Of a DNA stretch of 36,371 nucleotides, positions 1-32,476 are shown in pieces. This stretch comes from Scenedesmus sp. ARA3 (Eukaryota > Chlorophyta > Chlorophyceae > Sphaeropleales > Scenedesmaceae): NCBI GenBank assembly GCA_004335835.1, contig RWJK01000786.1:1-36371 (forward strand), written 5' to 3'. Within the stretch, counting starts at the first letter, position 1; each line of letters starts with the position of its first letter. The translations under genes and the position numbers were made by a program. The notes under the pieces were generated by a model, which made no database searches, was not told the origin of the DNA, and saw only the letters and a program-made list of their open reading frames with translations.

Positions 1-1895
1 CCCGGCTGCGCCTGACAAATCGCAAGGTGCTGCAGGAGCTGCCAGCTAGCCTGAACCTGACTCAGGGCATCACCGACCGGCTGGACGCACACACCTCCCT
101 GCTAGGCAAGGCAGATGGTGCCGCTGCTGCTGTAATTGCAACTGGTGGGATGAATGGGATTGATGCGGAGTTCACGGCCAATGTTGTCACCGTGGGGCCC
201 TTGACCTGCCCCAGTGGCACCTCGGCCACTCTGGGCGTCAAGACCACGAACACCAACTCCTCTCCGGACAAGTGGTTTTCGACGCAGGGCGTGGCCGCGG
301 CCGATGTGGCGAGCTATACCGCCGAGAATAAGCCCAAGCTGAACGAAGCCACGGTGTTTCACAGCGAACTCACCCATTTGGGTCTAGGGACGGCCTGGAC
401 GATGAAGATCGGCCGCGGCGGCCAAATCTACTCCCTTTCTACCCCCGAGCTCGGGGAGCTGATCCCCAAGCAGCGTGTGACCGTCGGTCAATGGATGGAT
501 GAGGTCTTTCAGCACGTCCTGTGGATGCCGCCCCAAAAGCTTGGGGGGATTTCGACCTCCGAGATCGTTGATGGCGACATTCACCAGGCCGGCATGTACG
601 TGACGAGCGACGTCACGCACCAACCGCTCCTCCCCCACAGCGTCTACTCTCCCCTCTTTGCCTACCAGCACAACCCCTGCGAAAACAAGGTGGACTACAA
701 CACCTGGCCGCTCCACGCACATCTCCCCCGCTACGCAGCGGCCACGACCATCACCGTCAATCGTCCAGTGGTGAAGCCCACGAGCGGCGCGACGTCGGAT
801 TATGCCAAGACCTGCACGGTACAGAAGAGGACCACTGATCCCTCGCCTTGGGAGACCTGCACGCAGAGTCCCTGCAACGTCACCTATGATCCGAACAGTT
901 ACCGCCAGAATCTCGTGCTGATGCACCAAACCACCTCCGATCTGGATAACGGGGTCATTCAAATTGATCTGGAAATCAATAAGTGGGGTGGATCCGTCCA
1001 CGAGGGGCTGCAGGGCCCCTGGGCCGCCTTCCGCACCAGCACTGTCCCGGTGATGATCCTGAGCAAGGCCGACGGCACCTACGAGCAGGTGGTAACGGGC
1101 GCCGACGATTCCAATTGCCCCTACTTGAGTAACGGCACGGTCGGCAACTGGGTTGCCTTGATGAACAAAAACAGCCCCGCGGGCAAGGGCATCGGCCTCG
1201 TCTTCGGCAGCGCCTCAAGCTTCTCCCCGGCCGTTGCGCCCGACTTTCTCTTGTGGATAATCTATAGCAAGGACGATCTCAGCGGCACCGTGCTCAACGT
1301 CGGCCGCAAGATTTACCTCGTGGCTGGGGAGAGCCTCTGGCTCCGCTACTTCCTCGTCCTCGGAGATATCGCCCACATCCAGGCGGAGGCCAAGGCGCTC
1401 CGCCCCTGCAATCTCATCACCAAGCAGAAGCGGAACACGGACGTAATCGAGAAGTCGGGAGCGTTGCTCGTCTGCTTTGACAAGAAGACCTTTCGCCCTG
1501 TCCGCTGCCGGCCCTCCGATACGACGCTCCAGCCGATCTTCAAGGCCTTCCGGGATTATGTCTCAGGAGCCAAGCCGCTCTTTATGTTGGCGGATAGGAC
1601 CCGCAGACGATACGTCGTCACCACCAATCCCTACTTCGTCAGCTACGATCCCACCGATAACAAGACCGCCTATCAGGATTTTCTCGGCTGGGCCCTTCCC
1701 TCCGCCAGGGCCACTTACTATTGCAATAAGATGAAGGATCCGAACTGCGCGCAGGATCTGACGACCGCCTTCGGCGCGATGACCAGCAAACCCATCATCA
1801 ACGTTGCCGCCAACCTGCGCGTGTTGACCCTCACCTCCAAGGCCGTGCCCTCGGACAGCTCGGCCTTCACCCCCGCAGCCTGCATCCCCCTCTAG
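1..1895 (+). CDS. Intronless gene of unknown function, 5' end outside window
   Basis: The reading frame is open from the left edge (R-L-R-L-T-N-R-K precedes V-L-Q-E-L-P) to TAG at 1893-1895, so the start lies upstream; the GTG at 27 is not a credible eukaryotic start. About 630 codons are visible without an intron, microsatellite or poly-Q/A tract, unlike every other long gene here except the subtilase. The protein is rich in beta-type segments, Thr, Asn and paired Cys (for example C-T-Q-S-P-C). A hydrophobic aromatic stretch lies near residues 405-445 (F-L-L-W-I-I-Y-S-K-D-D and L-W-L-R-Y-F-L-V-L-G-D). I do not recognise the family. The look is of a secreted beta-sandwich, perhaps carbohydrate-related, but that is weak inference. 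Lack of introns, more mixed codon choice and an AATAAA just after the stop make transfer or a retrocopy possible. Confidence 0.75.
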   Translation, partial: RLRLTNRKVLQELPASLNLTQGITDRLDAHTSLLGKADGAAAAVIATGGMNGIDAEFTANVVTVGPLTCPSGTSATLGVKTTNTNSSPDKWFSTQGVAAADVASYTAENKPKLNEATVFHSELTHLGLGTAWTMKIGRGGQIYSLSTPELGELIPKQRVTVGQWMDEVFQHVLWMPPQKLGGISTSEIVDGDIHQAGMYVTSDVTHQPLLPHSVYSPLFAYQHNPCENKVDYNTWPLHAHLPRYAAATTITVNRPVVKPTSGATSDYAKTCTVQKRTTDPSPWETCTQSPCNVTYDPNSYRQNLVLMHQTTSDLDNGVIQIDLEINKWGGSVHEGLQGPWAAFRTSTVPVMILSKADGTYEQVVTGADDSNCPYLSNGTVGNWVALMNKNSPAGKGIGLVFGSASSFSPAVAPDFLLWIIYSKDDLSGTVLNVGRKIYLVAGESLWLRYFLVLGDIAHIQAEAKALRPCNLITKQKRNTDVIEKSGALLVCFDKKTFRPVRCRPSDTTLQPIFKAFRDYVSGAKPLFMLADRTRRRYVVTTNPYFVSYDPTDNKTAYQDFLGWALPSARATYYCNKMKDPNCAQDLTTAFGAMTSKPIINVAANLRVLTLTSKAVPSDSSAFTPAACIPL

Positions 1896-1899
1896 GTCA

Positions 1900-1905
1900 A
1901 ATAAA
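1900..1905 (+). promoter_or_regulatory. AATAAA element just after the stop codon
   Basis: A perfect AATAAA starts five bases after the TAG stop. Chlorophyte nuclear genes normally use TGTAA as the poly(A) signal, so this is either chance or a sign that the upstream gene is not typical of its host. Its position is too close to the stop for an ordinary 3' UTR. Confidence 0.3.
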
Positions 1906-2145
1906 GCCCCGTTCCCCCGAGTTCTCAAGATGGCCAAGATCAGTGCAATCAACCTAAGAGAAGGGAGAGCGCTGCAAAGGGCAGGGAGAGCTACTAGCTA
2001 GCATAGTATGCCAAAGCCAGACTGGCTGCCCAGGTGAGCGCCACCTGGATGATGCAGAAAATAGAGCTGTTGTTGCTCAGTGTGCACCATAATGACGCGC
2101 GCTGCACTTGCCGCATGTTCGATATGTCTATTCAACGGTGCTAAC

Positions 2146-2222
2146 GGCAGCGGCAGCGTTGTGCCCAGCTGCCTGTGCAGATTCTAGCATGCGTATATTT
2201 TAGTGGCAGGCACAGCTGTGCC
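2146..2222 (+). repeat. Copy 1 of a diverged segmental repeat (partner 2653-2736)
   Basis: The block runs from GGCAGCGGCAGCGTTGT through AGATTCTAGCATG to GGCAGGCACAGCTGTGCC. It is matched in order by GGCAGCAGCAGCGTTGT, AGATTCCAGCATG and AGCAGGCACAGTTGCACC at 2653-2736. Both blocks lie upstream of a pyrimidine-containing stretch ending in a possible CAG acceptor (2288-2290 and 2802-2804). The unit therefore looks like a duplicated intron 3' end plus the start of the following exon, about 510 bases apart. Confidence 0.6.
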
Positions 2223-2652
2223 ATGTGTCTGGATGTTCACCTTTCCAGGTTTACCTTGACTGCTTGCTTCGTGTCCGTTTCAATCCGCAGGCTGCTGCTG
2301 ATGTTGCGCCTGAAGCTGATGCTGATCAAGAGCCTAGGCTGTTGGTGATGCTGGTGCTATTGATGGCATGCCTGCGCTGGTAGCTGCAGCAATCAGCCCA
2401 CCTACATCGCCTTCGGAGGTGAGAGCACTGTGCAGATTAGTCCGAACTGGACAGGCAAAGACGTGCTGAAGTGCCATCACAGTTTGTCATGCTCTGACCT
2501 TCGTTACGGCAACGACTTTGGCACCGCCTGCAGCATCGAGGCAGCAGTTGCACAGCGCAACAAGCTGCACTCCCCAAAGATGCCCAGGGCTGGCATCCGC
2601 AGCGGCAGTCGCATGCTTGTTTCCACTTTCTGTAGCAACACCATGTTGAAGA

Positions 2653-2736
2653 TGGCAGCAGCAGCGTTGTACCCAGCTCCTGCTTTGCTGCAGATTCCAG
2701 CATGCACTTTCAGTAGGAGCAGGCACAGTTGCACCA
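2653..2736 (+). repeat. Copy 2 of the diverged segmental repeat (partner 2146-2222)
   Basis: Same order of matching blocks as at 2146-2222, with scattered substitutions and small insertions. It sits inside the probable intron directly before the coiled-coil exon at 2805, which makes the pair another example of exon/intron boundary duplication in this window. Confidence 0.6.
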
Positions 2737-2804
2737 CGCTTCTGTCGGTCACGTCCTTAGGCATTAATCACGTTTTGCTTTGTGTGCTTTTCTACCCGCT
2801 GCAG

Positions 2805-3043
2805 CAACAGATGATGCATCAGGAGACAGTGTCCCAGCTGCAGCTGCAGCTGCAGGCCTCGAGGGTGAAAAATGCTCGAGGCTGAATGCCAACCAGGCTC
2901 TGAAGGCAGAGGACCAGGGCTTGAAGGCAGAAAACCAGCGGCTACAGCATAGCATCGCACAGGCACATGGGCACCTGTCAGAGCTGGCGCAGGCACTGTC
3001 AGCGGCGCGGCAGGTGCCAGCTCAGCAGCCACCTGCACACTAA
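2805..3043 (+). CDS. Probable terminal exon of a coiled-coil protein
   Basis: A CAG acceptor at 2802-2804 opens a frame (T-D-D-A-S-G-D-S-V-P then Ala-rich) that runs to TAA at 3041-3043. From about 2860 the peptide is strongly heptad-like: A-N-Q-A-L-K-A-E-D-Q-G-L-K-A-E-N-Q followed by L-Q-H-S-I and L-S-E-L-A-Q-A-L, typical of a C-terminal coiled coil. A possible upstream exon lies near 2335-2418 (A-V-G-D-A-G-A-I-D-G-M-P-A-L-V) and ends in GAG before GTGAGAG. Its phase does not join cleanly to this frame, so the 5' structure is unresolved. The product is unknown. Confidence 0.4.
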
Positions 3044-3883
3044 GAGGGTTGCGCTGGCATGTACAATTGATATGGACAGCATAAACAACTGATCTGATAT
3101 GATGGTATTTTATTCACAATCAGTCGACTGCCAGTGACTTGTTCTATGCACGTGTGTCCGCCTGGCGTTGTCTAGCAAATGCAAGTGATGTACTTGCTTG
3201 CAGGGCCATTGAGACCTCACCTCATGTTCCTTGTTGTTGGCAGAGAGTTTGCATGCAAGCATTCTGATCACATTCTGTCAAAGTAGGTGTCGAAACCATC
3301 TAGCGTGTTGTGTCAACATAGTGATTGTAGAGGTTGCATGCATGCGGACTGGCGCCCATCCCTGGTGAACATATCCCACGGGGTGATGGTATGAGCGGCA
3401 TACTTTTGCAATGGATCACGATCTATTTCGTTTGCCACCAGCCTAGCAGTGTGGCACAATGTGCTGTAGTCATGCCTGGCCTGGGCCAGTAACATCAATG
3501 GCATGTGGTGATGGTTTTCTGTATTGCTAGGGCTCAGTAACTGATTTCACCGGTGCACAACAGAGCTGATTCGATCCGCTGTTGAGTCCACAAAAAAAAG
3601 CGCGCCTAAAAGCGCGGGAGACACTTGATCAGCAAAGTTACCCTAACCTTCACAGCCTGCAACCGCAACTGCACCGCGCCACGCGGACAGTGTTCAAGGC
3701 TTCAGACTATGAACACACACAAACCATTGCTCCGCCCTGCAAACTATTAAAAAAAGTCCGTTTGCGAGTGATGTTCCTGATGAGGTAGCAAAGAAAGTGC
3801 GCCCAATGCAGCCTATCTCTGGCAATGAGCTCAAATTGCTAACGACTAGCATTGCTACCAGCACCAGCTACAATGAGCACCCG
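3044..3883. other. Intergenic, no supported gene
   Basis: No frame with coding character or paired splice sites is seen. A small GCGCG-CCTAAAA-GCGCG hairpin lies near 3601-3618 and several A runs are present. Transcripts from the gene at 2805-3043 and the opposite-strand gene ending at 3884 would converge here, but no TGTAA was found on either strand close to the stops. Confidence 0.5.
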
Positions 3884-5091
3884 CTAGCACTTCTGGGCAG
3901 CGAGCGCCTTCTGCGCAGCTGCCAGGTTGAGCCGTGCCGGCTGGGCCGCGCCCTGCGGCCGGCTGCTGAGCAGCGCAGCCCGCACCTGGTCTGCGCTGCA
4001 GCCAGGGAACGCACTCCACAGCCGCGCTGCCGCCCCTGCTACCAGCGCTGCGGCTGCTGCGCTGCCCTCCCATGCCTTGGTGGCTGCTGTTCTGCTGCCA
4101 TCCCTACGCACGTCTTGCACGATGATGTTCTTGCCAGGGGCAAGGATGTCTGGCTGCTGCTTGGCGCCGCTGCCGTAGCTGCTGCGCAGCGGGCTGCCCT
4201 CACAGTCAAACCCGCCCACAGCCAGCACCTGTGGGAACGCTGCTGGGAACGCCACACCGCTGAAGCTATCGCCAGCTGGCGCCACCATCAGCACATCCGG
4301 CGAGCCGCCGTCGACAGTGCGCCCAGTTGCTGTCGCCAGCCAGTCTGCCTCACTAATTCTAAAGCCGCTCGATCCCACCGGCGCTGTGGGCCACTGCGCC
4401 GCCACGTCCACCAGCACCACCATGCGCCAGCGCAGCGGCGGCGCGTACAGCCCGTAGTCGCGCGCCTGCAGGCCCCGTAGGTGCCCCTCGCACGCAGTAT
4501 ACGCGCGGATCCTGCTGCTGCCGCCTGTTGCCTCAGGGCTGGAGGTGAGGCTGCCGCTGTCAGGGTTCACTGGCACCACATACACGTCAGCGCCATCCGG
4601 CAGCAGCCCCCGCACGCGTGCATCCAGCCCTCTGCCCGCCCCCGAGCCTGCTAGCACACTTGCCAGGAACGTGCCGCGCTGCTTCCAGTTGCCCTTATTG
4701 TCTAGCGGCGAGTCCCAGCGTAGGGTACAGCCGCCGGGGTCCAGCGGGTGCTGCGCCACGCAGCCGTCCCAGGAGCCGCTGCTGCGCTGTGCCAGGTAGG
4801 GGCTGCTGACTGCCACACCGCTGCTGATGAGGCACAGCAGCACCTGCTCCGACTTGGTTGGTAGCTTGCTGGCGCTGGCGCCGATTGCTGACAGGGCCCA
4901 GGAGCCGCCGCCAGGCGGCTGCACGGAACACAAGTTAGCTTTGCTGCTGCTGCTGTTGCTGTTGCTGCTAGCAGGTACGGCCCTGACGGAGCTTGTGTTG
5001 GTTGTCAGCGGGGCTGCTGCTGGTGGTGCAGCCAGCAGTTGCCGGTGCAACAGCAGCCGCTGCTTCCGGCTTGTTCTCAGGAAGCTGCTGC

Positions 5092-5124
<33 letters not shown>

Positions 5125-5221
5125 GTTTGCTGTGTGTGCTGCAGCCTGCAGATGCCGCACACTTGATGGCTGCAGCATCTGGCAGCTGCAGCAGCAGCTG
5201 CTGTTCAGCACCTGCAGACAT
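3884..5221 (-). CDS. Subtilisin-fold (S8) protein lacking all catalytic residues
   Basis: A single exon of 445 aa starts at ATG 5221 and ends at TAG 3884-3886. The C-terminal two thirds follow an algal S8 subtilase: C-L-I-S-S-G-V at 130-136, R-G-T-F-L-A-S-V-L-A-G at 182-192, V-A-P-A-G-D-S at 313-319, F-P-Q-V-L-A-V-G-G at 329-337 and G-S-A-A-A-A-A-L-V-A-G at 386-396, then L-W-S-A-F-P-G-C-S-A-D-Q-V. Compared with the family motifs D-[ST]-G, H-G-T-H, A-G-N and G-T-S-M-A-A-P, the Asp is Ser133, the His is Arg182, the oxyanion Asn is Asp318 and the nucleophile Ser is Ala388. The fold is kept and catalysis is not expected. Residues 1-100 are low complexity with a Ser run from an AGC tract, and no signal peptide is visible. 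Lack of introns suggests a retrocopy or transfer. An upstream exon cannot be excluded. Confidence 0.8.
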
Positions 5222-5961
5222 AGTGGTGGCGACACTCTGTTAAGGCGAGCTGTGCCTGCACGTGTGCAGTATGTCAGGCAAGCATTACGCAAAAGTGCAA
5301 GCATATGCCTAGCTGGGTGAGCATGTCATGAAGAGACACAAAGGAATCCTCTACACTGGGTACTCAGCAAGTGTGACTGCCTAGCCACTCACCTGAGCAC
5401 CCATATAGGAAGCATGAAACGATGAGTACTGCCAGGGCTTGTACGCTGCGGTTCATGGCTGCCAGCTGAAGCTTTGATCACTGCTGATGGCACCATATTG
5501 GGGCAGGTCACTCAGGTGCTGGGCAGCTTCTGCTGGAACTGCTCCATGCTAGGTCAACCTCCAGCAGCAGGCGAAACAACGATGTTTGACAATGAAACAG
5601 AAAAAAGTACCTAAGTATCCAACGAAAGCACCACTGCACTACGGGACTCTGTTGCTGCTGCTACCTGTGTGCTGCCGAGAGCGGCTTGTGAACGGTCTGA
5701 ACTTGGAACGGCGTACTTCGTTGGAGCAAAAGCAAACATAACGGTTTATCTAGGTGTTTGTGTTACATGTCAGCAATTCGCTGTTCAGTTGGGTGCCACC
5801 TGTACCAGCACATGGATTCTCCAAGATGGTGCCCAAGCTTTGCCTCCGCTACCTGCTCGGAACTATAAGTGGTTCACACAAGTGTTAAAGCCCCTCCTCG
5901 TCTGCCCTGTCACTGACACCTGCTGCTGTTTCGACGAAGCTTACAGAGCCCACTGGCGCCC
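5222..5961. promoter_or_regulatory. Divergent intergenic region between subtilase and phosphatase genes
   Basis: The region separates the ATG at 5221 on the minus strand from the ATG at 5962 on the plus strand, so it must hold both promoters and 5' UTRs. I see no clear TATA box or known element. The plus-strand frame from 5669 is open but reads as low-quality Cys-rich sequence and is not preferred. Confidence 0.4.
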
Positions 5962-6482
5962 ATGCTGCACAGCAGCAGGCCCGCCGGTGGCCTGTGTGCA
6001 CTCGGAAGACACAAATCTCGGCCGATCAAGCAGCGGTTGGTGGCTGTCGCTTACACGAGCGGGCAAGCAAAGCAGGACCCAGCACTGGTACTGCAGCAGC
6101 AGCAACAGCAGGCTCCTGCAAGCCAGCATGGAGTGCTTGCAGCAGCTGAGCGGCTGGACTTGGACGAGGTCTGGGTTCCTTACCGCTGGCCGGGGCAGCT
6201 GGGCGGCGAGGACGTGTATATCTCAGGTGAGGCAGCTGCAGCATGCAGTGGAAAGCGGCGCCCCTTCTGCTGACCGCAGCACGCCAGTGGGGCTAGCAAG
6301 CAGCTGGCACCTTCATGACAAAATATGTTGTACAAGGTCATTCCTCAGTATTATGCTGTATTATAGGTTAGATTCCTGCAAAGCTTGGACACCGCCCGCA
6401 GCTGAAAGTCAACTTTTCATATGCACTTGCAGCGGCGTCATACTGCCATGCTGTACTGCAGCGCTTCTGCAGCAAGCTCTGA

Positions 6483-6513
<31 letters not shown>

Positions 6514-8160
6514 ACTCTATGGACTTCTGCTCACGGTTTCTCACTGCAGGCAGCTGGTGCGAGTGGAAGGAGCGGCACGTGAGCCTGCGCCACTGCAGCG
6601 CCAGTGCCAGCTACCCGGGCGACTGGGTGGCGCTGTTCAAGATGAAGACGGGCCAGCACGAGTACAAGTTCAACGTGGACGGCGGCTGGCGCGTGGCGCC
6701 CGGCGACCCGCTGGTCATGGACCCTGAGGTGGGTGGCGACTGGGGTTTTTGCAGCACAGCAGCGCTAAGGCTTATGTCACAGCAATAGCAGCACGCTGCC
6801 TTTGCCTCAGCAGCAGCACTTGCAGCAGTGTATGCCTGGTGACCCGCTGGTCATGGACCCGAAGGTGCGTGGCTGGGTGATGAGGCCATGCAGGCCAGGG
6901 GTGGGAGCAGAGCCTCTGCCGCAGCAGCAGCACTTGCAGCAGTACAGAGGCCTGTCAGCACGAGGCCAGGCTACCCGCTGGCCATGGACGAATAGGGGGG
7001 CGACTGGGGGTGGAAGGGGGCAGGGCCTGAGCCATGGCAGCAGCATCACGCCTGTGCCGCAGCAGCAGTACAGAGGCACGGAGGACTGTCAGCAACGCAG
7101 CCTGCACCGAGGCGGGTAATCGACCTCAAGGCAATTGGCGGGCCGCACAGCAGCAGGCAGAGAACCAGCTGCAGCAGCCCTGGCAGGAATTCGGCACAGC
7201 GCCAGCAGCAGCAGCAGCGCTGGCAGCACGCCAGTCACCATCCGCCAACCAGGTGCTTGGCAGTAGTGCACCGCATTGCAGCACCTGATGGTTGTTGCTG
7301 GTTGCTACAGGGCTGCCAAGGCGCGATGCATGGGACTTTCTTACAGCAGCCAGCGCCAGGATTGTTCTTAAGCAGCAGTATCTGCAGCGGAAGAGGGCCT
7401 GTCAGCCTGGTACCCTCCATAGAGGGTGCTTGCGGAGACGGGCTTGGCAAGGTGGCTGCAAAGCATGAGGCTGGCTCGCAGCAGCTGCGCTACACATGCT
7501 CATGTTCTAGGAGCAGCAGGATCACGCAACCTTGCAATTGGCTCAAGCGCCAGCATTGCGCTGGTAGGCAGCAGATTCTGCTGCGAAGCCGGGACGTGCC
7601 CAGCCACTTGCGTGGCTCTTATCCCTGCATGATTCCTTGCTGCTGCTGCTCTGCTGGCCTTGTGCCTTTGCTGCGGCCAGGGCAACATCAACAACAAGCG
7701 GCTGTGCGTGAAGAACTGCCACATCGAGTTCTGCTTCAAGTCCAACAGCCCGGTGGCGCGGTCGCCTCGCACAGTCATCAGCGTGATTGGCTCGTGGAGC
7801 AACTGGAGGGTGAGCGGGCGTGGCTGGCGTGCAGGGGGCTGCAGCAGCATGCACAGCTGGCAGGGCACGTCTTGATGCAGCAGCAGCTGGCAGGGGCCTT
7901 CTTGGTGCAGCAGCCGCTGGCAGCAGCCTCACTGCAGCTGCAAAGGCAACATGAAGCACATGACAGTGGCTGGCATGCATGGCGGCGCGGCATGAGCAGG
8001 CCTGTTCATACGTGCCACAAGCAACTGAAGCGCCTGCCTGTATCTCTGCTGCTGCGGCACTTGCGTCTGCACCTGCTGCTGCCCCTTGCAGATTGCTACG
8101 CCCCTGCAGAAGGAGGGCAGCAACAAGTGGTTCACTGAGCTCAGCCTGCCGGTGAGTGGC

Positions 8161-11100: not shown

Positions 11101-13456
11101 CAGTGCTGCGTGTTGTGTGTCAGATGGCTGTGCTGCTGACTGGCTACAATCAAGTGTTGCTTGCAGCGTGTTGGTGCATGCATGCAGTGCGCAATGCAAC
11201 CTGCTGCCACTGCTCCTGCTGTTGCTCACTCGGTGCCCCTGCTGCGTCTGCTGCCACACCGCTCCCTCCCTCCACAGATCTGGTACCTGCCTGACGGCAT
11301 GCGCTGCTTCCAGGACCCCACCGAGGTGGAGTGGATCGAGGACAAGCTGTGGAGCAACAGGCTGGACGAGGGATGGGACCTACAGCAGGTGCGGGCCTGT
11401 GCGTGAAGGCGTGTGGTGTGGGCTTGGAGTGGGGTAGGGGTGGGGTGCAAGTGAGGTTGGTGTGGGGTGGGGCTGGACGACGGCTGGGACCTGCAGCAGG
11501 TGAGAAGGGAGCGGTGTTCGGCCGTGCACGGGTGGGGGCTGCCGGTGTGGCCGTGCGCGGGTGGGGTGGGGTTCGATGGGGTGGCTGAGTGGGTGTAGCT
11601 GGGGTGAAGTGGGGGTGGGTGGGCTGGGACGGCGAGGGGTATGCTGTGAAGGCACCAATTGTATGTCACTGCCGGGTGCACATTGTGTCTGAGAAACAGC
11701 TTGTCCGTACGTGTCAGAAGCGGTTCAGACTTGCGTGTCACGGCTGGCTGGCTGGCTGGCTGGCTGGCTGCCAAATGCAGCGCATATTTCGCATCCATAC
11801 CAGCCCCTTCAGCCCTGTCGCCTGGGTTGCCGTCACACTCCACCAGGTAGGTGCAGGCTCCGGCAGCTGTAATGGCTGCAGTGTGTTGCAGGTGCTGAAC
11901 TGCATGCATGCGAGGCCGCCTCCCCTTTCACCTGTGCTGCTCCTACACTCTACCTGCCACCCGCAGGCGCTGTCAGCTGCCGGGGAGATGTTCAAGCTGT
12001 TCAACCGCGACTCTGCGGAGCGCGTGAAGTGGCTGGACAAGGGCCAGGAGCACCCGCACAGGGTGGCGCTGCAGGTGAGGGTGCGAACGGCTGTGCGGCT
12101 GTGGCTTCGCGGCTGAAGGGGCAGGCTGCTGGCATGGGAGGCTGCTCAGCAGCATTCACAGTGCAGTGCTGCTCTGAGATGGCTCAATTTTCCGTGTTGC
12201 CTTGAACAACAATGCGTCTGTTCAGTTTGGCTCATCAGCACAGCATGCAGCAGCGGGGTGCTGCTTGACAGACTGGTGTTCAGGTGTCAGTTTGCCGGCC
12301 GGCTGCAAGCCCTGCTCATCTCGGCTGCTGCTGCTGCTGCTGCTGCCGTCATGTCGCAGGTGCACACTGCGGTGCTGGACGACCTCATCGAGCGGCTGCA
12401 GGAGGCCATCGACAAGCGCCAGCTGCAGGTGCGGCCAGGCAGCACAGGCAGCAAAGCTGGGAGCAGAACTTTTGGTTGCCAATCAGCCAGCTGCCATGCA
12501 GTACCACAGGCGCTGCTCCGGCTGTTCATTGACACACGCGTTAAACCTAAACCGGCACAATCCTGCAAGATTCCGGTCAACCTAATCACTGATTGCTGTG
12601 CTGTATGTACTGCTTGGCTCCGCCTTGTGCCCGCCCCCAGGCGCGCATCATCATGTCTGGCGCTGGCGACTGGCGCTACGTGGACGTGGTGCACCGCCTG
12701 GCGGGCAAGCTGGAGGCGCTGGAGTGGGTGAGGCAGGTGTACGGCGTGCCAGTGGAGGTAAGGGGCAGGCCCTCAGGCGATGGCAGTTGAAGGGTGGGAG
12801 GCAGGTGCAGTGTGTTGCTGCACCTCCTGCTTCAACAACGCGTGCTCAGCTGCTGTGTCGACGGTATCTGCTGCTGGCAAAGATGTATGTTCTGCTGCCG
12901 CAACTCAACCACTGCCTGTCATGTGCCGTTGTGCTGCTGCATCTCTTGAGCATGGGGCTAGGCAATGTTGCTGTCGCTGTGCAAGCTGTTAACATGGTGC
13001 TGGGTGCTGTGTGCTGTGTGCTGCAGCGCTGCGCCACCGCTGGTGACAGCTGCAACGACATCCTCATGCTGGACGGCAAGATGCCCGCCATCGTGGTGAG
13101 TCCATGTGTACGCAATTGATAACGGCGTGGATGGCTGCTTTGCAGCCCGCATGTTTAGCAGTGCTCAACTTAGCAGTTGAGCATTCACTGGCAGCATCTG
13201 GTGACTATTTGCCAGCGTGACAAAGAGGTTTTGTCAGCTATAACACGCCTTTCCTGCTGCATTGCTGGCGCTGAAACACTTGCTTGCTGTCTGTGTGGCT
13301 GGCACCTGCCGCTGCTGCCGCCGCCAGGTGGGCAACGCGCAGGAGGAGCTGGTGCGCTGGTACCACGAGCAGAACGACCACGGCCGCATCGTGCTCACAG
13401 ACAAGCCAGAGGCGGCAGGCGTGCTGGAGGGCTTGGCACGGCACGGCCTGTACTAG
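5962..13456 (+). CDS. Starch-binding-module / sucrose-6-phosphate phosphatase fusion
   Basis: Sixteen phase-consistent exons give 722 aa: 5962-6226, 6550-6728, 7681-7809, 8092-8151, 8481-8609, 8820-8912, 9197-9355, 9593-9913, 10204-10298, 10807-10942, 11278-11388, 11967-12074, 12360-12428, 12641-12757, 13027-13095, 13328-13456. Residues 1-35 are Ser/Arg/Ala-rich and transit-peptide-like (R-L-V-A-V-A-Y). A CBM48/AMPK-beta-like module spans about 72-155 (E-D-V-Y-I-S-G-S-W-C-E-W, H-E-Y-K-F-N-V-D-G-G-W, G-N-I-N-N). A second module lies at 175-254 (V-I-G-S-W-S-N-W, P-G-E-Y-S-F-R-F). A third, CBM25/53-like, lies at 255-338 (F-Y-A-T-G-W, R-W-K-Q-A-I-I-A-L-P). The C-terminal HAD domain matches plant and cyanobacterial S6PP: D448-I-D450-G-T, T492-G-R-S, K641 and G-D664-S-C-N-D668, then G-N-A-Q-E-E-L-V-R-W. 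All HAD catalytic residues are present. Predicted role: starch-surface sugar-phosphate phosphatase, probably plastidial; the substrate is inferred. Confidence 0.88.
6700..7012 (+). repeat. Exon 2 3' end plus donor, tandem copies running into intron 2
   Basis: The end of exon 2 with its donor (GACCCGCTGGTCATGGACCC, then GAG/GTGGGTGGC) is at about 6700-6746. It recurs at 6835-6880 (GACCCGCTGGTCATGGACCC, GAAGGTGCGTGGC) and more decayed at 6966-7012 (TACCCGCTGGCCATGGACGA, with CGACTGGGGG after it). Spacing is about 136 and 131 bases. The linker also repeats, as GCAGCAGCACTTGCAGCAGT near 6810 and 6922, with a shorter trace near 7055. Confidence 0.85.
8160..8194 (+). repeat. CAG tract just inside intron 4
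   Basis: An uninterrupted run of about eleven CAG/GCA units starts eight bases after the GTGAGT donor of exon 4. It is the one clear CAG-sense tract in an intron here; other introns tend to carry CTG-sense tracts near their 3' ends. Confidence 0.9.
11047..11106 (+). repeat. Decayed copy of exon 10 3' end inside intron 10
   Basis: ATGCTGGCAGTGCCAGGCGT, then GCTCATTTGTGGGCACCAAG, mirrors the last ~50 bases of exon 10 (ATGCTGGCGGTGCCGGACGT ... GTGGGCACCAAG, ending at 10942). The following ATGCGGTGCGCTGGCAGTGCT resembles the original donor flank GTGCGCCCGGCACTGCT. The copy lies about 150 bases downstream and has a small deletion. Confidence 0.8.
11401..11650 (+). other. G-rich intron segment
   Basis: Sense-strand intron 11 is dense in GGGG runs separated by one to seven bases, for example GGGGTAGGGGTGGGG near 11434 and GTGGGGTGGGGTTCGATGGGG near 11561. 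Runs of this kind can form quadruplexes in RNA or DNA. They surround the copied exon end at 11471-11505. Confidence 0.6.
11471..11505 (+). repeat. Copy of exon 11 3' end with intact donor inside intron 11
   Basis: GGCTGGACGACGGCTGGGAC followed by CTGCAGCAG/GTGAG repeats the end of exon 11 (GGCTGGACGAGGGATGGGAC, CTACAGCAG/GTGCG, ending at 11388) exactly 111 bases later. The peptide sense is almost unchanged (L-D-D-G-W-D-L-Q-Q), and the copied donor GTGAG is closer to consensus than the original GTGCG. Confidence 0.85.
11740..11770 (+). repeat. GGCT tetranucleotide microsatellite
   Basis: Seven tandem GGCT units lie in intron 11 between the G-rich stretch and the acceptor of exon 12. Confidence 0.9.
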
Positions 13457-13800
13457 CAACTTCATGCCCCCAGTGCTGCGGAGCGCGCACGCTAGTAGGC
13501 CCAGCCGTGGTGCGCGGTGTGTAGTGATGTATCACAAGCAGCGCTGAAGGGCGGGCGCGGCACGGGCTCTACTGAGCTCCTTGCTGGCAGCGGTGTGGCG
13601 TGTTTGGTCCAGTAGGTGCAGTGGTGGTGGCGCGTGGGTGGCGATGATCATCAGTTGAAGGGCCTGGCACGCCACGGCCTGTACTGAGGGGCTCCAAAGC
13701 GATGGTGTGGCCCACTTCGCCAGCAGGTGCAGTCATTGTGCACGGTGTGTAGCAATGCGTCACCAGCAGCGCTCGGAGGCGCGGCGCGGCCTGTATTGGG
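13413..13800 (+). repeat. Terminal exon 3' end and 3' UTR in four tandem copies
   Basis: The last coding bases of exon 16 (GGCTTGGCACGGCACGGCCT, GTACTAG, ending at 13456) recur as GGGCGCGGCACGGGCTCTACTGA ending at 13575 and GGCCTGGCACGCCACGGCCTGTACTGA ending at 13687. A shorter copy, CGCGGCGCGGCCTGTATTGG, ends near 13799. Spacing is 119, 112 and 112 bases. Linker blocks such as GGTGTGTAG followed by AGCAGCGCT also repeat. The first two copies keep an in-frame stop after Tyr; the third has lost it. Confidence 0.85.
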
Positions 13801-14589
13801 TGCATTGTTAGCATGTGAGCAGTGGTATGTGAAAATGCTGTGCACCCGCCAAATGCAGCCGGCAGCGCATTGTAGCAAGGCATGCTGGGCTTGCGGCATG
13901 ATGCATGAGGGTGCTGCTGCTGGCTTGTGGCCAGTGGGTGCAGCAGCCTGTCGCAGTCTGCATGCTGGTGGCAGATGTCACGTTTTGTGGTTGTGGCGTT
14001 CTCATGCTGTCCTGCAGCTGCCAATAAGGCAAGCATTTCAGGCGGCATTGTGTCTTCCCCTTTTTGTTTCTGGCATGGTTTGTCTGGTTTCTCAATTCCG
14101 TTCTGCTTGGTCACTTGCCTGGCCACTGCAGGCCGTGCATAACAATGCCTGTCACTGGCCTGACAGTGACCAAGTGGCAGATCCGGCAAATACGCCAACT
14201 TGTGTTCAATACCGAGAACAAATTCACGTGTGTTTTGGGAGTGGTCAGAGAGCCATGGCGTCGCCTGTTGAGGGTTTGTCACCTCTTGTGATTCTGCAGG
14301 CATGGTTTTTGGTGTGTGCACATTGTAGAGGATGGGGTGCAGGCTATGCAGTTTCATCTCTTGCTAGCAACAGTGCAGCGCTGCACATGTTGCGTCTTTG
14401 TTCTGTGTGTGACCCATGTACTTTTACGTTTGGTTTGTCTGCTGGGTTTCATGATGCAATGTGGGCTTTGCTGATGTTACTAGTCTCTCCACACGACCGT
14501 GCCGCAGCAGCATGCAGCAACTGATGTGGGGTTGTGTAGGTTGGCGGTCGTATGGCCCCAGTGCCTTGATGCCGTTGGTAGCTGTCATG
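13801..14589. other. Intergenic, no supported gene
   Basis: The AT content is somewhat higher here and no frame has paired splice sites or recognisable motifs. A plus-strand frame is open across 13727-14524 but shows no protein-like composition. Confidence 0.4.
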
Positions 14590-16343: not shown

Positions 16344-19300
16344 TCAGCACAGCGGCTGCTGCTTGCGTGTGAGCAGCAGCGTGTCACTGCCGGGTGCTGG
16401 GCGCAGCCCCGGGAACACCTCCATGGTGCGCAGCACATCAGGGTCGGCGAAGGACCAGGCCAGGCCGCCCCGCAGCAGCACCGCCAGCAGCAGCTTGACC
16501 TCCGTCATCACCAGGTTCATGCCCAGGCAGCTGCAGCAAGGGGAAGAGGAGGCAGGTGGCAGCAGGCACGGCGCAGAGACAGCAAGCGGCGGCACATGGA
16601 TCAGCAAGAAACCAAGGCACAGTGAACCTTGATTGAAGGTGGCTGCAGGTACGTAAGCACACATGCACTGCCAACAGCACATTAGCTGCCTGCTGCGCAG
16701 GTTAGCCGCTGCCATAGTGATACTACAAGCAGTGGCAGTGACGCTGCCAGCACCCCTGGCAGCCTCCCCCTTCCCATCACACTCACAGGTGAGGACCGAA
16801 GCCGAACGTCAGCATGTGGCGCGGCCTGCTGGACGCGTCACCCAGCCAGCGCTCAGGCTGGAAGGCGCCAGCCAGGCCGCCCTTCCAGTCCATGTAGGGA
16901 GGCACAACACTGCCAGCCGGGATGCTGCCGGGGCCCTTCCACAGTGTGGGCTCCAGCGCATGCATGCAGTCCACGCTGCAGATCATGTAGGCGCTGCGCG
17001 GGATCTGGACTCCGCACAGGCTGATGTTGTTGGTGGCCTGGCGCATGACGACGCGCGAGGCTGGCAGCAGGCGCGTCACCTCGCGGATGCAGGCCTCCAG
17101 GCGCGGCATGTCACCCAGCACCGCCTGGCTGAGGGTGGGGCCGTGGGTGGACACCACCTGCACGGCAGTGCGAGACACGAAGAGAAGATGAGGTAAGGAA
17201 AGCAAAAGAGGGCCACGCTGGACAGAGCTCGGCCTGCCTGAGGGTGGGGCCGTGGCAGGAGGGGTGGAGGCCTGGGGGGCATGGGGAGGGCGGGGGCAGA
17301 AGATGCAGTTAGGCAGGCACACGCAGCACTAGCTGTGCTGATCTGGACAGACACAGATGCGCTCGCGTGACTCACCTCTACTAGCAAAGTGGTTGGGCGC
17401 ATGCCACAAGCCGCATCACTGCAAGCGGGGCCGCTGTGCTGTCACAACACACACGACTGCGCGGCTCTAGCTGCTACAGCAACGCTCCACTGTCTCAATC
17501 AACACAACATGCGATGACCGCAAGGCCTGCGGCGCCGGCCTGCCGCCCCGCCCACCTGCTGCTGCTCCTGCCTCAGCGCCTCCACCTGGTCAGGCAACTG
17601 CCCCAGGATGGCCAGCACAGCAAAGATCATGTAGCGCGTGGTGTCCACGGCACCAATCAGCGTGCCCAGCACCCGCATCGCAGCATTCTCCACGCTCAGC
17701 CGCTGCTGCGCGCGCAGCACCTCCAGCTGTGCCTCTGCCATGTTGGGAGGGGCCACGCTGCTGGCTGCTGCTGGCGCACCCAGCGCAGCCGCATGCGCAG
17801 TGAGCTGCACTGGAGCAGCGCCGCTGGTGCCCTTGCCACCAGTACCAATGCTTGCTGCTGCTGCTGCTGCTGCTTCGCGCTCTTTGAGCCGTGCCACGCA
17901 TGTCGCTGCTGCTGCCTGGTCCACCTGGAAGGCTGTGTCGCTGTGCAGCAGCTCATGCTTGCTGGCGCCATCGCCAGTCCTGAGCATCTTGGCAGCTGGC
18001 CCGACTAGTGCATCAGCGCCCGGCTCATTCTGCAGCATTGTGGTAACAGAGTCCTGCACGGAGACGCAGCATAAATATTTGGATTGGCTGCCTTTGTCCC
18101 TGACCACCAGCAAACTGAGATGTCAAGGCACTGAAATACACGTCAGCTGGTGGCTTTGCATGCTGGGCATGTCACGCCGTTGCAAGCTGGCACGACTGGA
18201 AGTGTATCTGTACACCAAACACGGGTTCACAACAACAATAGCATTCGCTCTTCAAAGTTGCACCACTGCTGCTCATGGTGTCTGTCCAACCACAAGCTGT
18301 CCTCTGTTCTGGTCCTGCTGTGCCCAGCCGCATCATCCCCATCAACTCACCTGCAGCTCCCTGCTGAGTGCTGCCAGCAGCTCCTGCTTGGCCGCCAGTG
18401 CCTTGCTGAAGGTGTTGCCTGGCAGCGCCAGCGGCAGCGCGTACAGCCCCGCCAGGTACTGCAGCATGCGGGCCTTGAACCAGGCGCGGTCGGTGTGCAC
18501 CAGCGGCACGCCCACCAGCACCTCAATGGCAAACTCCAGCGCCATCTCACCCGTCTGGCAAGATGAAGGGAAACATGCAGCGCAGGACAACACAGACACA
18601 AGCGAGCGTGAGCAGAGCCAATGACCACAACGTGAAGTGAGGTGGCAGCAGATGGCCCAGAGCCATCACCCAATTTGACAGACAGGAAGCGCAGGCAGGG
18701 ACGAACAGCGCAGATTCAAATCAACAGTAGATAGGAGCAGATTCAGTGAACAGGATGTGGACACGATGTGTTCCAAAACCTCGATGGCAAACTCCAGCGC
18801 CATCTCACCCGTCTAGACAAGCACATACACAAATGCACAGCACTGCAGCACATAACAGATGCATGCACATGTGAGCAAAATCCAGTGTCGCTTACTTTAC
18901 AGTGGGGTGGCGGCAGGAACAATGGCAGCTCGTCGCTGGTGGCACGTCTTGTACGCGCGACACATAAATGCACAACAGCTGTTGCATGCTGTACGCGCAT
19001 CATGATGCTCTGCGATGTGTTGGCGTGGATTATCATAAGGGCTGCCTGCAGGGGTGCACTGCTGCCCTTCTGCCCTGCACTGCTGCCCTTCTGCCCTGCA
19101 TTGCCGCCCTTCTGGCCTGCCCCACCTCATGCAGCAGGCTGGCGCTGCCACGCTGTGCCCAGCCGTCCACGGCAGCCTGGATGATGCCCGCCAGGCGTGG
19201 CACGCAGCCCTCGATGCTGGCGGGTGACAGGGCCGTGGTCACGGCCTTGCGCCAGAAGCTGCGTGCAGAATGCATATGCAGGGCGGCGCAGCAGGATTTT

Positions 19301-24363: not shown

Positions 24364-25748
24364 ATGCCTGTGCAACATGACCCTGACGACGCTGACGAAT
24401 TCAAAGTCATGCAGAGCAGTAGAGCCATCTTTTTGAAGGTCTTTCAACATGAAAGATGCAGCTTTTTGAACGGCTTACCGGTTGTTGTGTGTTTTGCAGG
24501 CCAACAATCAGTCTATCTCAATTAACCATGGATACATTATCCCTGCATCAGCGCCCATGCTTGAAGCTGGGTCGCAATGGAAGCCAGCTGACACAGCAGT
24601 TGCTGCGACTGCGGTTACAGCCAATGAATCAGCAGCAGCAACTGGTAAAAGGCCCAACTGGCCAGTACAGCAGCATTCGCTCATGAGTGCAGGCGGAAAC
24701 CCGGCAGCACAACCCTATCCAGACTTGGAAGAACCAGCAGAGCACAAGCGTCAGGTGGGGCATCAACAGCTGCCCATTGAAGGGCTGTGATCCTGCTGGT
24801 CATGTCCTAATCATGCAATCTTGACCTGGTTGCTGTGTTGTGATGTGCTTTACAGCTGGTTCAGTTACGCAAGTGCTTATTGTGCTTACTGCCTTGCCGA
24901 TTTGCCGGCTGCGCTCCCTGCAGCTGGACAAGGCCGCTCCCAATGCTGCCAATCTCCCAGCCAGTCATGGCAAACACGTCGCTGGTGCAGCTGAGTACAC
25001 GGCCGGCTATGGCAAGCTGCTCATCGACTCAGCTGGGCAGCCAGCACAGCAGGCGGCTGTGGCAGCAGTGCTGGAAGTGCAGCCAGGCCCTTCAACAACA
25101 GATGCAGATCTGCTCAAAGCTGGCTATGGCAAGCTGCTAGATGGCACTGCTGAGCAGCAGGCACAGCAGGCGGTTTCAGCAGCTGTGCCAGAAGTGCAGC
25201 CAGACTCTGAAACAGCAGATGCAGCTCAGCTTAAAGCTGGCTGTGGCAAGCCGCTAAATGGCACTGCTGAGCAGCAGGCACAGAAGGCGGTGTCAGCAGC
25301 CGTGCCTGAAGTGCAGCCAGGCACTCCAACAACAGATGCAGGTTTGCTCAAAGCTGGCTGTGGCAAGCTGCTAGATGGCACTGCTGAGCAGCAGGCACAG
25401 CATGCGATTGTGGCAGCAGTGCTGGAAGCACAGCCAGGCCCTCCAACAGCATATGCAGCTCAGCTCAAAGCTGGCTATGGCAAGCTGTTAGATGGAACAG
25501 CTGAGCAGCAGGCACAGCAGGCGGGTGCGGCAGGTGCAACAGCAAACACGCCAGTAGCCACTTCAACAGCAAATGCAGCTGAGCTTAAAGCTGGCTATAA
25601 CAAGCTGCTTGTCAACTCAGCTGAGCAGCAGGCACAACATGTGGTTGTAGCAGCAGTGCTGCATAGCAGATATAGACCTCAGTGCAAGCTCTGGATGCAA
25701 GTGCTCCTCAACGATGCACACCAAAATCTGGCAGGCATCCAAGGCTAA
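24364..25748 (+). CDS. Protein with six tandem 39-residue repeats
   Basis: Three phase-0 exons are proposed: 24364-24438 (M-P-V-Q-H-D-P-D-D-A-D-E-F-K), 24500-24754 (after TTTTGCAG, ending CAG/GTGGGG) and 24924-25748 (after CCCTGCAG, ending TAA), about 384 aa. The first exon has a poor donor (GTCTTT) and a 61-base intron, so the true start may be upstream. The last exon carries six copies of L-K-A-G-Y-G-K-L-L-D-G-T-A-E-Q-Q-A-Q-Q-A plus a V-x-A-A-V-x-E-V-Q-P linker. The repeat is helical and Ala/Gln-rich, with an invariant G-x-K-x-L and A-E-Q-Q-A-Q. A TGTAA lies 166 bases after the stop. The family is not recognised; a scaffold or low-complexity repeat protein is possible. Confidence 0.55.
24996..25680 (+). 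repeat. Coding minisatellite, 117-bp unit, six copies
   Basis: Unit starts (CTCAAAGCTGGC or CTTAAAGCTGGC) fall at 25113, 25230, 25347, 25464 and 25584, preceded by a diverged unit at about 24996. Four intervals are 117 bases and one is 120, so the reading frame is always kept. Central units are nearly identical and edge units more diverged, as expected from unequal exchange. Confidence 0.95.
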
Positions 25749-28990: not shown

Positions 28991-31537
28991 CAAAGCGCCC
29001 CTCAAGGCTATCCAGCTGTGCCTGCAGGCAGGCCAGCGCCTCAGCAGTAGACGCCTCGTGGCGGCGCAGCGCAGCGGATGACTCAGCAAGGCCAGCCCGC
29101 AGCCCGCCAGCCTCAGCATGCAGGCAGCCCACCAGCGCTGCCAGCTGGGCGTTGTCCAGCCGCAGCTGCTCAACCATGGCAGCGGGCGCGGCGGCGGCGC
29201 TGCTGCTGCTGCTGCTGGTGGTGGTGGTGCTGCTGCTGGTGCTGGCCGCGGCAGCGGTGGTGACTGTGGGATCCATCACAACGTCAGTACCTGCTGCAGC
29301 TGTGAAGTAAGGTTGTGCATCGTCCAGTAACAGAGAATCCACCGTTACGTCGGCGGCAGCGCTGCTGCTGCTGGCGTTGCCAGTGCTGGCGGGGTTGGTG
29401 GTAGGCGCATCGTCATCAGCTGCTGCAGATGTGTTTGAAACAGTAGCTGCCACTGCCGAAGGTGCTGCAGAGGCGGGAAGCGCTTGAGGCTCTGCTGCCG
29501 CCTCTGCTGCTGCTGCTGCTGCCCCCTCTGCTGCTGCTGCCGCTGCCCCCTCTGCTGCTGCTGCTGCCTCTGTTGCAGCGCCTGCTGCTGATGCCGCTGC
29601 TGATGCCGCTGCTGATGCCGCGCCTGCTGCTGCCTCAGCCTGCCGCAGCTCCTGCAGTGAAGCATCGTCTGCTGCTGGCACCTGCCCCTCCCCTGGCAGC
29701 AGCAGCGCCTCCACGTCACCCAGGCTGACGCCAAAGGCAGCAGCAACGCGCGCCTTGAAGGCCTCCACGCGCTCCTGCAAGGCGGAGCAGATGGCACAGC
29801 GGACAGCAGTGTCAGGGGAGGGCATGCAGTGGTGTGCAAATAGAGGCAGCCACACGCGCCTTGAAGGCCTCCACGCGCTCCTGCACGCGGCAATAAAGAG
29901 CAGAGCAGGTTGCACAGCTGGAAGGCAAGCAGTGTCAGGGGAGGGCATGTACTGGTGTGCCGGGGGCAGCAACCACACGTGTATTGAAGGCCTGCACGCG
30001 CTCCGGCAGAGCAGAGCAGGTTGCACAGAAGGAAGGCAAGCAGAGTCAGGCCATACGTTGGTGTACAGAGAGCAGCAGCCACATGCGCCTTGAAGGCCTC
30101 CACGCGCTCCTGCAGGCGGCAGGGTGAGGCAGGGTGGTGGCATTGCGGGCAGTGTCAGTGCATGCACAGTGGGCAGCGAGGCATAGGGAGGTGCTGGATG
30201 CTTGGCAGCAGCCACACGCGCCTTGAAGGCCTCCACGCGCTCCTGCAGGCGGCATTTGGGAAAGAGCGGATGGCACAGCGGAAAGCAGTGTCAGGGGAGG
30301 GCATGCAGTGGTGTGCAGATAGAGGCAGCAACACGTGCCTTGAAGGCCTCCACACGCTCCTGCAAAGCAAATGACACAGCAGAGCAGGCCACATCAATGC
30401 ATGCTGTGGTAGGCAGACAGCAGCATGGAGGGCTGGGTGCTTGGCCACAAAGGCAGCAGCCAGGCGCCTTAAAGGCTGCCACGCGCTCCTGCAAAGCAAA
30501 TGGCACAGCAGAGCGGGTCAGGTCAAGGCATGCATTGGAAAGCAGACAGCAACAGTGGAGCGCTAAATGATTGGGCACATGCGCCTTGAAGGCCTCCACG
30601 AGCTCCTACAGGCGGCAGAGTGCGGCAGGGTCAGGCAGAGCAAGCCATGTCAAGGCTGGGGGTAGAATGGCATTTGTGTGGCTGGCCATGGATCCAGTAT
30701 GCCTGCACATCTGCAGCAGCCAGCGCACGAAGGCAGCGATGTTGGCAGCCTGCCTGTCTTGTAGGCTGGCCCTGCAGCTGCACATGTAAGGGCATGTCTA
30801 TAGCTGGCCATGCAGTATACAAGCTGCCACACAATGCACAAGGCGGCTGTCTGCGGCCCGCAGTCACCAGCAGTGCATTGATGTGCCCCAACAGCAGCAG
30901 CAGCAGACACACTCACCCTTGGCTCAGCAGCTAGACATGCAAGTATGGACTGCATATGTATGGCTGGCCATGCATTGAATAAGTTGGCACACGCTGCACA
31001 AGCCAGCAGTGCATCAATGCGCCACAGCAGTAGACGCACTCACCCCTGGCTCTGCAGTGCAGACGGGTGAGGGCATGTAAATACTGCTTGTGCTTTCAAC
31101 AAAAAGCTAGCACACAATGCACAAGGCAGCGCTGGCTGCGACCCGCAGCATTGTATTAGAGTGCCTCACAGCGGCAGTGCGCTCACCCCTGGCTCTGCAG
31201 TGAACACACGTGAGGGCACGTGTACAGCTCGTGCTTTCAAAAAGCTAGCACACAATGCACAAGACAGTGCTGGCCCGACACGCAGCATTGCGCTAGAGTA
31301 CCTCAGCAGCAGCAGCAGCAGCAGACTCACCCCTGGCTCCGCAGTGAAGATGTGCACAGCGCTGGCATCGTGCTCGCAGCACACCTCCACACGCAGCAGC
31401 CCAGCGCCAGCACTGCTGCTGGCACCGCCGCTGCTGGTGCTGCTGCTGCTGGCTGCTGCTGCCGCCGCATGCGCCTCTGGGGTGCCGCTGGCCTGAGCGC
31501 CTGGTGGTGCCGCTGCAAGCCCATCTGCTTTTGCTGG

Positions 31538-31570
<33 letters not shown>

Positions 31571-32476
31571 CAGTGCTGGTGGTGGTGCTGCCGTGGGGTG
31601 TGCTGCTGCTGTGCTGCGGGCCCAAGCAGCAGCACATGTCCGGACGTGGCCCAAGCACCATTCAGCAGTACGTAAACTTACCAACAATACTGGTATGAGA
31701 ATAAGCAACATATGCATTCCAAAGATGGTCGGTGTTGTCTTGCTGCTGCTGCTGCTGCTGCTGGTGCTGCTGCTGCTGCTGCTAGCTGATCCCGTTGCAA
31801 GCCCGCTGGCGTGCTTGCAGCCACGCCTCCTTGCTGCTGCACTGGCACAAGCTGATGCTGCTGTGTCCGCTGCTGCTGCTGCTGCTGTTGGTGGTGCAGC
31901 TGGGTGCAGTGTGCGCAGCTGGCGCGAGACACAGGCCGCCCCTTCCTGCTCAGCTGCCAGCACCACTCGTGACAGCAGCTGCTGCAGCCGCTGCTGCAGA
32001 GGGCTGGCAGGGCAAGCATACCACGGCAGCGCCGGGTTGCTGGCACAAGCTGCTGCATCAGCCTGCTGCTGCTGCTGCTGCTGCTGCTGGGCATGTGTGC
32101 GGCTGCGGCAGTGGCCGTGCTGCTGCTGCTGCTGCTGGCGCCTCTCTGCGCGGCGCTGCTCCCGCTGCTCCCGGCGCACTTGGCGTGGATGCTGCTGCGG
32201 GCCCATCACTGGAGGCGATGCAGCAGCATCTCCCTGCCCATGGACCCAGGCACCATCAAAATCCTGCTGGGGCTGCTGCCCCTGGGCCTTGCTGCTGCTG
32301 CTGCTGCTGCTGCTGGGTGGCAGGGGTGTGAGTGGGGTGAGTGTCACTGCTTGGCCGTCATGGCAGGCGAACCACAGGTGGGTGGGACTGCTGGTGTTGA
32401 GGCGGGCGCGCCAGTAGGCTGCGTCGTACAGCAGCACTGCATGGTTGATGGGGCTGCAGCAGCAGCAGCAGCAGCA

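Follow-up and report, generated by a model that had tools for sequence, protein, structure and literature searches.

Serial copies of exon edges fill both ends of long introns in a scenedesmacean green alga and suggest growth by tandem duplication across splice junctions

The predicted intron at 29775-31330 (minus strand) of the DNA stretch studied here (the window, 36,371 nucleotides from Scenedesmus sp. ARA3) contains, in its 5' part, extra copies of the upstream exon end with the donor site, and in its 3' part, extra copies of the acceptor site with the start of the downstream exon. The original prediction described such dual arrays for this single intron. We found that this is how long introns are usually built in the four genes that we tested from this genome, where each of the 22 introns with at least 400 bases had copies. 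In our interpretation the window intron grew by repeated tandem duplication of segments of ~100-150 bases straddling both splice junctions, the same process likely made most long introns of the genome, and many of the copies are exon edges of a diverged haplotype that were demoted into the intron. We assign a probability of roughly 0.75 to this reading. For the genome-wide part, four genes were analysed directly and the likely extension to the other genes is an extrapolation from them.

The window intron is 1,556 bases long, has the boundaries GTGAGT...TTGCAG, and interrupts the frame in phase 0 (CCA GGG / GAG CGC) within a junction peptide, HIFTAEPG/ERVEAFKARV, that is open in frame. Three donor-type and seven acceptor-type extra copies had been claimed, and reading the minus strand of 29300-31900 showed all of them in place. 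On the donor side the presumed working edge is the upstream exon end at 31331-31350, whose last exon base is 31331. It is followed into the intron by copies at 31187-31204 (exon part of 18 nt, then GTGAGC), 31044-31063 (20 nt, then GTGAGT) and 30917-30930 (14 nt with 13/18 identity, then GTGAGT), with their last exon bases at 31187, 31044 and 30917. All four units continue with GTGAG, and they are spaced by 144, 143 and 127 bases. The presumed working acceptor edge is the downstream exon start at 29736-29774. Counted from there, the acceptor-side copies lie at 29846-29880 (GTGCAG), 29965-30003 (CTGCCG), 30072-30109 (CTGCAG), 30204-30242 (CTGCAG), 30325-30359 (TTGCAG), 30464-30488 (TTGCAG) and 30581-30605 (CTGTAG), all, like the donor units, on the minus strand. 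The first exon bases of the eight acceptor units (29774, 29880, 30003, 30109, 30242, 30359, 30488 and 30605) are separated by 106, 123, 106, 133, 117, 129 and 117 bases. The splice AG is kept in six of the seven extra copies and is lost at 30003, where the sequence reads CCG, so that the intron has, as predicted, four donors and seven AG-bearing acceptor sites, or eight with the CCG copy. At 31038-31348, Tandem Repeats Finder (TRF) called a tandem repeat with a 138-base unit and 2.2 copies.

The chance level for these arrays was taken from totals over 300 dinucleotide shuffles. With 18-base edges, 3 donor and 7 acceptor copies compared with shuffle totals of 19 and 31; with 26-base edges the counts were 2 and 7 against totals of 10 and 2, and edges of 30 bases gave 1 and 7, the shuffles totalling 3 and 0. 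The acceptor array is far above chance expectation. The donor array also exceeds chance, but copy by copy it is weaker, its exon parts being only 14-20 bases long. A 27-base piece of the downstream exon start occurs exactly three times in the 87.3-Mb assembly (1,567 contigs), each time in the window array.

For the gene containing this intron, one protein search (words from residues 85-330 of a low-complexity query) gave no homologue among the candidates listed. Neither of the flanking open frames had a Pfam domain at E 0.01, nor did the peptide joined across the junction at E 5; the intron/exon structure at this locus is therefore predicted. The ubiquitin-like domain that had been proposed at the junction was thus not recovered by Pfam. 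A plasmid search gave no match. CAG/GCA triplet tracts, common across the window (e.g. 29492-29633), defeat ab initio gene finding; the output of an ab initio gene finder was discarded because, in such CAG-rich low complexity, what it had learned as an acceptor was the CAG repeat.

Introns with better-defined borders were surveyed in the chaperonin genes CCT1, CCT5, CCT7 and CCT8 of this genome, with exons derived from spliced alignment to homologous proteins. The CCT5 models were guided by the Chlamydomonas and Chromochloris proteins and agree intron by intron; CCT1 and CCT7 were modelled from vertebrate fragments, and CCT8 from vertebrate fragments and then from three algal proteins, the tail intron 1335-7055 of its first model having been discarded and later replaced. 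A search for DEAD helicases brought matches that yielded no loci, and these did not enter the survey. In an anchored scan the 30 exon bases flanking each junction were sought in the cognate intron, with at least 21/30 matching. Copies were found in 23 of 33 introns, 68 in total (39 donor-side and 29 acceptor-side), and the GT was kept in 36/39 of the former, the AG in 27/29 of the latter. All 22 introns of at least 400 bases carried copies, compared with one of the 11 shorter ones. Wherever an intron had both kinds (12 introns) the donor copies preceded the acceptor copies, none lying downstream of one. Copy number correlated with intron length (Spearman 0.85 over the 33 introns), at about 136 bases per copy. 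Shuffling the first 22 introns gave 0 matches in 220 shuffles, and among non-cognate edge-intron pairs 12 of 1,056 matched, 11 of the 12 between different chaperonin genes, presumably due to paralogy.

It must be noted that the 400-base rule was drawn from the first 22 introns; in the 11 CCT8 introns added afterwards, copies were present in 7/7 long and 1/4 short introns. The four genes belong to one family, and CCT1, CCT5 and, slightly, CCT8 had shown overlapping family matches before they were chosen. CCT7, the only locus picked blind, had copies in one of its four introns, the sole one longer than 400 bases. On unselected contigs 44 open frames passed filtering, 40 went to Pfam and 13 had a match; a flanking copy was found beside 4/13 exons with any Pfam match, compared with 2/84 control pairs. 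Ten of the 13 were tested first, including GATase_2, which was just under the cut-off, and one of the three remaining weak ones had a copy beside it. Above the cut-off copies occurred at 2/9 exons, both in one XRN gene (contig L016) that was kept out of the modelled set because a full-length homologue to guide a model was lacking. The yield on unselected contigs is likely a lower bound, because the matched parts need not extend to the exon edge, but it is also the least favourable figure. Other local repeats in the window and in sampled contigs resembled these by eye. In about ten of 19 repeat families inspected, an exon edge recurred close by together with its splice site; others, such as a histone-like coding repeat in L017 and a repeat in L022, showed no such echo. 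Two arrays seen by eye are in the window: at 6698-7094 (plus strand) an exon end with GT is repeated downstream at a 136-base offset, likely a donor-side echo in another gene, and at 18515-18916 (minus strand) CAG with an exon start is echoed, 258 bases further upstream in its gene, by a copy with TAG, likely on the acceptor side. A motif test free of gene models, in which the donor motif was kept in 12/46 local repeat families compared with 4 for the reversed motif, is weak, as the reversed motif occurs only half as often to begin with (156 vs 323) and the acceptor control was invalid.

Over 536 residues the predicted CCT5 protein is identical to a UniRef entry of Tetradesmus obliquus, except for a 15-residue insertion in the entry, thus the genome is likely that of T. 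obliquus. The mean intron length given for T. obliquus in Table 1 of PMC5966456 is 462 bp, while four other green algae have means of 230, 302, 284 and 270 bp, and this tabulated mean is in line with lengthening driven by copies.

The copies are fragments of exons: in 61 of them the exon part measured 23-100 bases (mean 59), and at the inner ends AG or GT was not consistently seen by eye, so they are not complete exons. The spacing was 90-148 bases for 46 of 61 intervals, 164-183 for 8 and 235-260 for 7, partly in multiples, and inner break points were often common to the copies within one array. The array in CCT5 intron 11 has six units with a period of ~107 bases and has retained its linkers. 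By gapped alignment the linkers of 24/45 copies matched some other unit in their array better than the 99% null of unrelated linkers, and those of 21/45 did not. In an ungapped profile donor-side identity falls to background level 6 bases into the intron, and the copies had accordingly been taken to lack their linkers; the gapped alignments overturned that reading. The alignable linkers diverge about twice as fast as the exon parts (0.169 vs 0.087 for exon-copy pairs, CCT5 intron 11 excluded), a comparison biased by the copies having been found through their exon parts. The 90-148-base spacing and the alignable linkers argue for recurrent tandem duplication across the splice junctions. The 21 copies without linker homology speak against plain tandem duplication alone, unless linkers turn over fast. 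With each duplication the intron would gain a linker and a partial exon edge, further expansion proceeding by unequal exchange or slippage between the repeats. Judging from the sequence, splicing would continue to use the outermost donor and acceptor, leaving the protein unchanged.

The differences between copies and exons fall mostly on synonymous sites. In the 61 copies, which are not independent of each other, 182 differences fell on 766 synonymous and 70 on 2,375 non-synonymous sites, i.e. 0.238 and 0.029 per site, a ratio of about 0.12; if neutral copies lay beside a synonymously drifting exon, about 282 non-synonymous differences would be expected instead of 70. In two of the copies all changes, 9 and 10 respectively, are synonymous. 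Several of the rate counts omit CCT5 intron 11, whose array shows no synonymous bias (private changes N3 S2, partial N1 S1). When, with this intron excluded, events were polarised in arrays with at least two copies, the excess was milder (S 66, N 42). This event count and the CCT5 intron 11 array softened an earlier view that every copy is under protein-level constraint. The splice motifs are also conserved: again excluding CCT5 intron 11, true edge and copy are identical at donor positions +1, +2 and +5 in 80/84 cases vs 32/112 at +6 to +9, and at acceptor positions -1 to -3 in 77/81 vs 55/108 at -6 to -9. Between adjacent copies the values are 39/42 vs 26/56 for the donor and 30/33 vs 17/44 for the acceptor motif.

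There are two readings of the synonymous bias: the copies may be in use now or have been until lately, or unequal crossing-over in the array may have carried in the exon edges of other haplotypes. In the first case inner sites might be spliced first, in nested or recursive fashion, or serve as alternative exon ends, with selection holding both motif and coding sense. The motifs, conserved also between adjacent copies, and the low non-synonymous to synonymous ratio are what such use would predict, yet we consider it unlikely. The recent-looking 107-base array of CCT5 intron 11 is free of synonymous bias, and the inner ends, inconsistent by eye, indicate that the copies are not whole exons. Moreover, the window intron allows 32 donor-acceptor pairs (4 of them via the CCG site), of which only 4, including the canonical one, are in frame without a stop over the stretch checked, leaving 3 of 31 alternative pairs, which also tells against the splice variants suggested originally. 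A broader version, in which Tetradesmus introns lengthen as their splice junctions are serially duplicated and the buried copies stay splice-competent under selection, so that long introns would be removed in nested fashion via inner junctions and could exchange edges with the exon by recombination, is doubtful to us, though conceivable. We prefer the haplotype reading over use because the copies are partial exons, most window joins break the frame or meet a stop, and the youngest-looking array decays freely. Many copies would then be former working edges of a diverged haplotype, demoted into the intron by unequal crossing-over, an origin suggested by their mostly synonymous differences and retained splice motifs. 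Haplotype capture would require a synonymous divergence of ~0.2 between haplotypes, which is a high value. In the whole assembly CCT5 exon 10 matches only its own locus, a pair of copies in the adjoining intron of the same gene and, briefly, a paralogue; a second haplotype of this exon was not found there, so this step is hypothetical.

As an alternative, diverged haplotypes, or repeats covered by short reads, could have been joined serially during assembly. Two haplotypes would indeed show synonymous-only differences, 101-base reads were used in one T. obliquus assembly (PMC5255914), and the assembly of another strain is almost twice the size (PMC5552973). An artefact is nevertheless highly improbable: the order of the units is fixed in arrays with as many as seven extra ones, none of the 22 long introns tested is without copies, and two public T. 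obliquus records, one for CCT5, which differs from our sequence, and one for CCT8, each read an intronic copy. Somewhat less improbable, but still quite unlikely, is that a polymerase, by template switching, inserted exon edges into the intron without linkers, in the manner of the serial template switching first put forward for the window intron. Many copies do match up to the splice motif and then stop in the ungapped alignment. What counts against it is the fairly regular, partly multiple spacing, the break points common within arrays, and the homologous linkers of 24 of 45 copies, all of which are features of tandem duplication. Taken as a whole, the original prediction is partly supported.

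The two protein records deserve description. The T. obliquus CCT5 record P0001 contains an extra NMVRVEQYAMRAFAD. P0001 reads NMVRVEQYAMRAFA where copy 8310 in intron 11 of our gene reads NMVRVEQYAMQAFA. With DNMVRVEQYAMQAFAG, this copy has two private changes in common with P0001 and one further difference from it, hence P0001 rests on a differing sequence. The CCT8 record P0121 has an extra KQLGYEDLLAL, of which a near twin (ending in LLAP) is encoded by an acceptor-side copy in the intron 1953-2471; the peptide is absent from P0122, a record with a transcript-style name, and from the Chlamydomonas, Monoraphidium and Chlorella proteins. The UniRef records thus contain 15- and 11-residue tandem duplications matching intronic exon-edge copies. 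Either the echoes likely misled the annotation or these are exons in rare use, and other T. obliquus records may carry similar duplications. As two public records read such copies, the arrays are likely not private to the present assembly.

It is instructive to compare the arrays with known systems. In the potato RdRp case an intron was gained by tandem genomic duplication (PMC4974935). That case likewise links a tandem duplication within a gene to altered intron structure; the difference is that a new intron was gained in potato, whereas here serial duplications across the junctions would have lengthened existing introns from both sides. The duplicated segments contain splice signals in our genes too (GT in 36/39, AG in 27/29), but a new intron in formerly exonic sequence was not seen: the copies lie within introns, and the CCT5 and CCT8 exons align to their homologues without them. 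The arrays also resemble intronic minisatellites, or variable-number tandem repeats, whose units are tandem and fairly regularly spaced. The units counted here, however, include an exon edge and mostly a splice motif, with donor units in the 5' and acceptor units in the 3' part, and the linkers matched above the 99% null for 24 of 45 copies and not for 21. Introner elements, which form dispersed families, are likewise splice-site-bearing repeats in algal introns; the copies tested here are local to their own intron, and neither of the two edges tested, CCT5 exon 10 and the window 27-mer, occurred at many unrelated sites. In tandem exon duplication, as in mutually exclusive exons, exon sequence is repeated in tandem with its splice sites, but the copies described here are partial, with one splice site: in 61 of them the exon part was 23-100 nt, and by eye the inner ends were not consistently AG or GT. 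Tandem duplication, as the likely mechanism, is ordinary. For its product, long introns filled with echoes of the junctions at both ends, searches of a paper library on the arrays and on the organism listed no description; in this the statement of the original prediction that no such class was known agrees with ours, and the matched arrays it reported are real.

It has long been asked how introns grow longer when transposons are not involved. In the arrays the steps of lengthening are legible as exon edges, from which one could infer how fast, in what order and in which direction they occurred. Were the process general, much of the additional intron length in T. obliquus would be due to it, and it would explain the duplicated peptides in its public CCT5 and CCT8 records. 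The window intron offers the spliceosome up to eight near-identical acceptor units.

A few further repeats were observed. At 13423-13813 (plus strand) of the window a coding end with its stop codon (..ARHGLY*) is, by eye, repeated about three times downstream; the habit of forming echoes may extend to the border of stop codon and 3' UTR. At 24958-25669 there is an in-frame minisatellite with a 117-base (39-codon) unit and ~5.6 copies inside an open frame, possibly an exon-internal counterpart of the same duplication process. In CCT5 intron 7 (L033, ~5100-5170) a piece of ~70 bases matches 21 other contigs with 73-100% identity and is likely a dispersed repeat within the intron. Contig L006 (424-788, minus strand) contains an exon start, which we take to be UGGT-like, with a nearby 117-base copy of 90.6% identity, differing, by hand count, in ~10 synonymous positions and one non-synonymous position.
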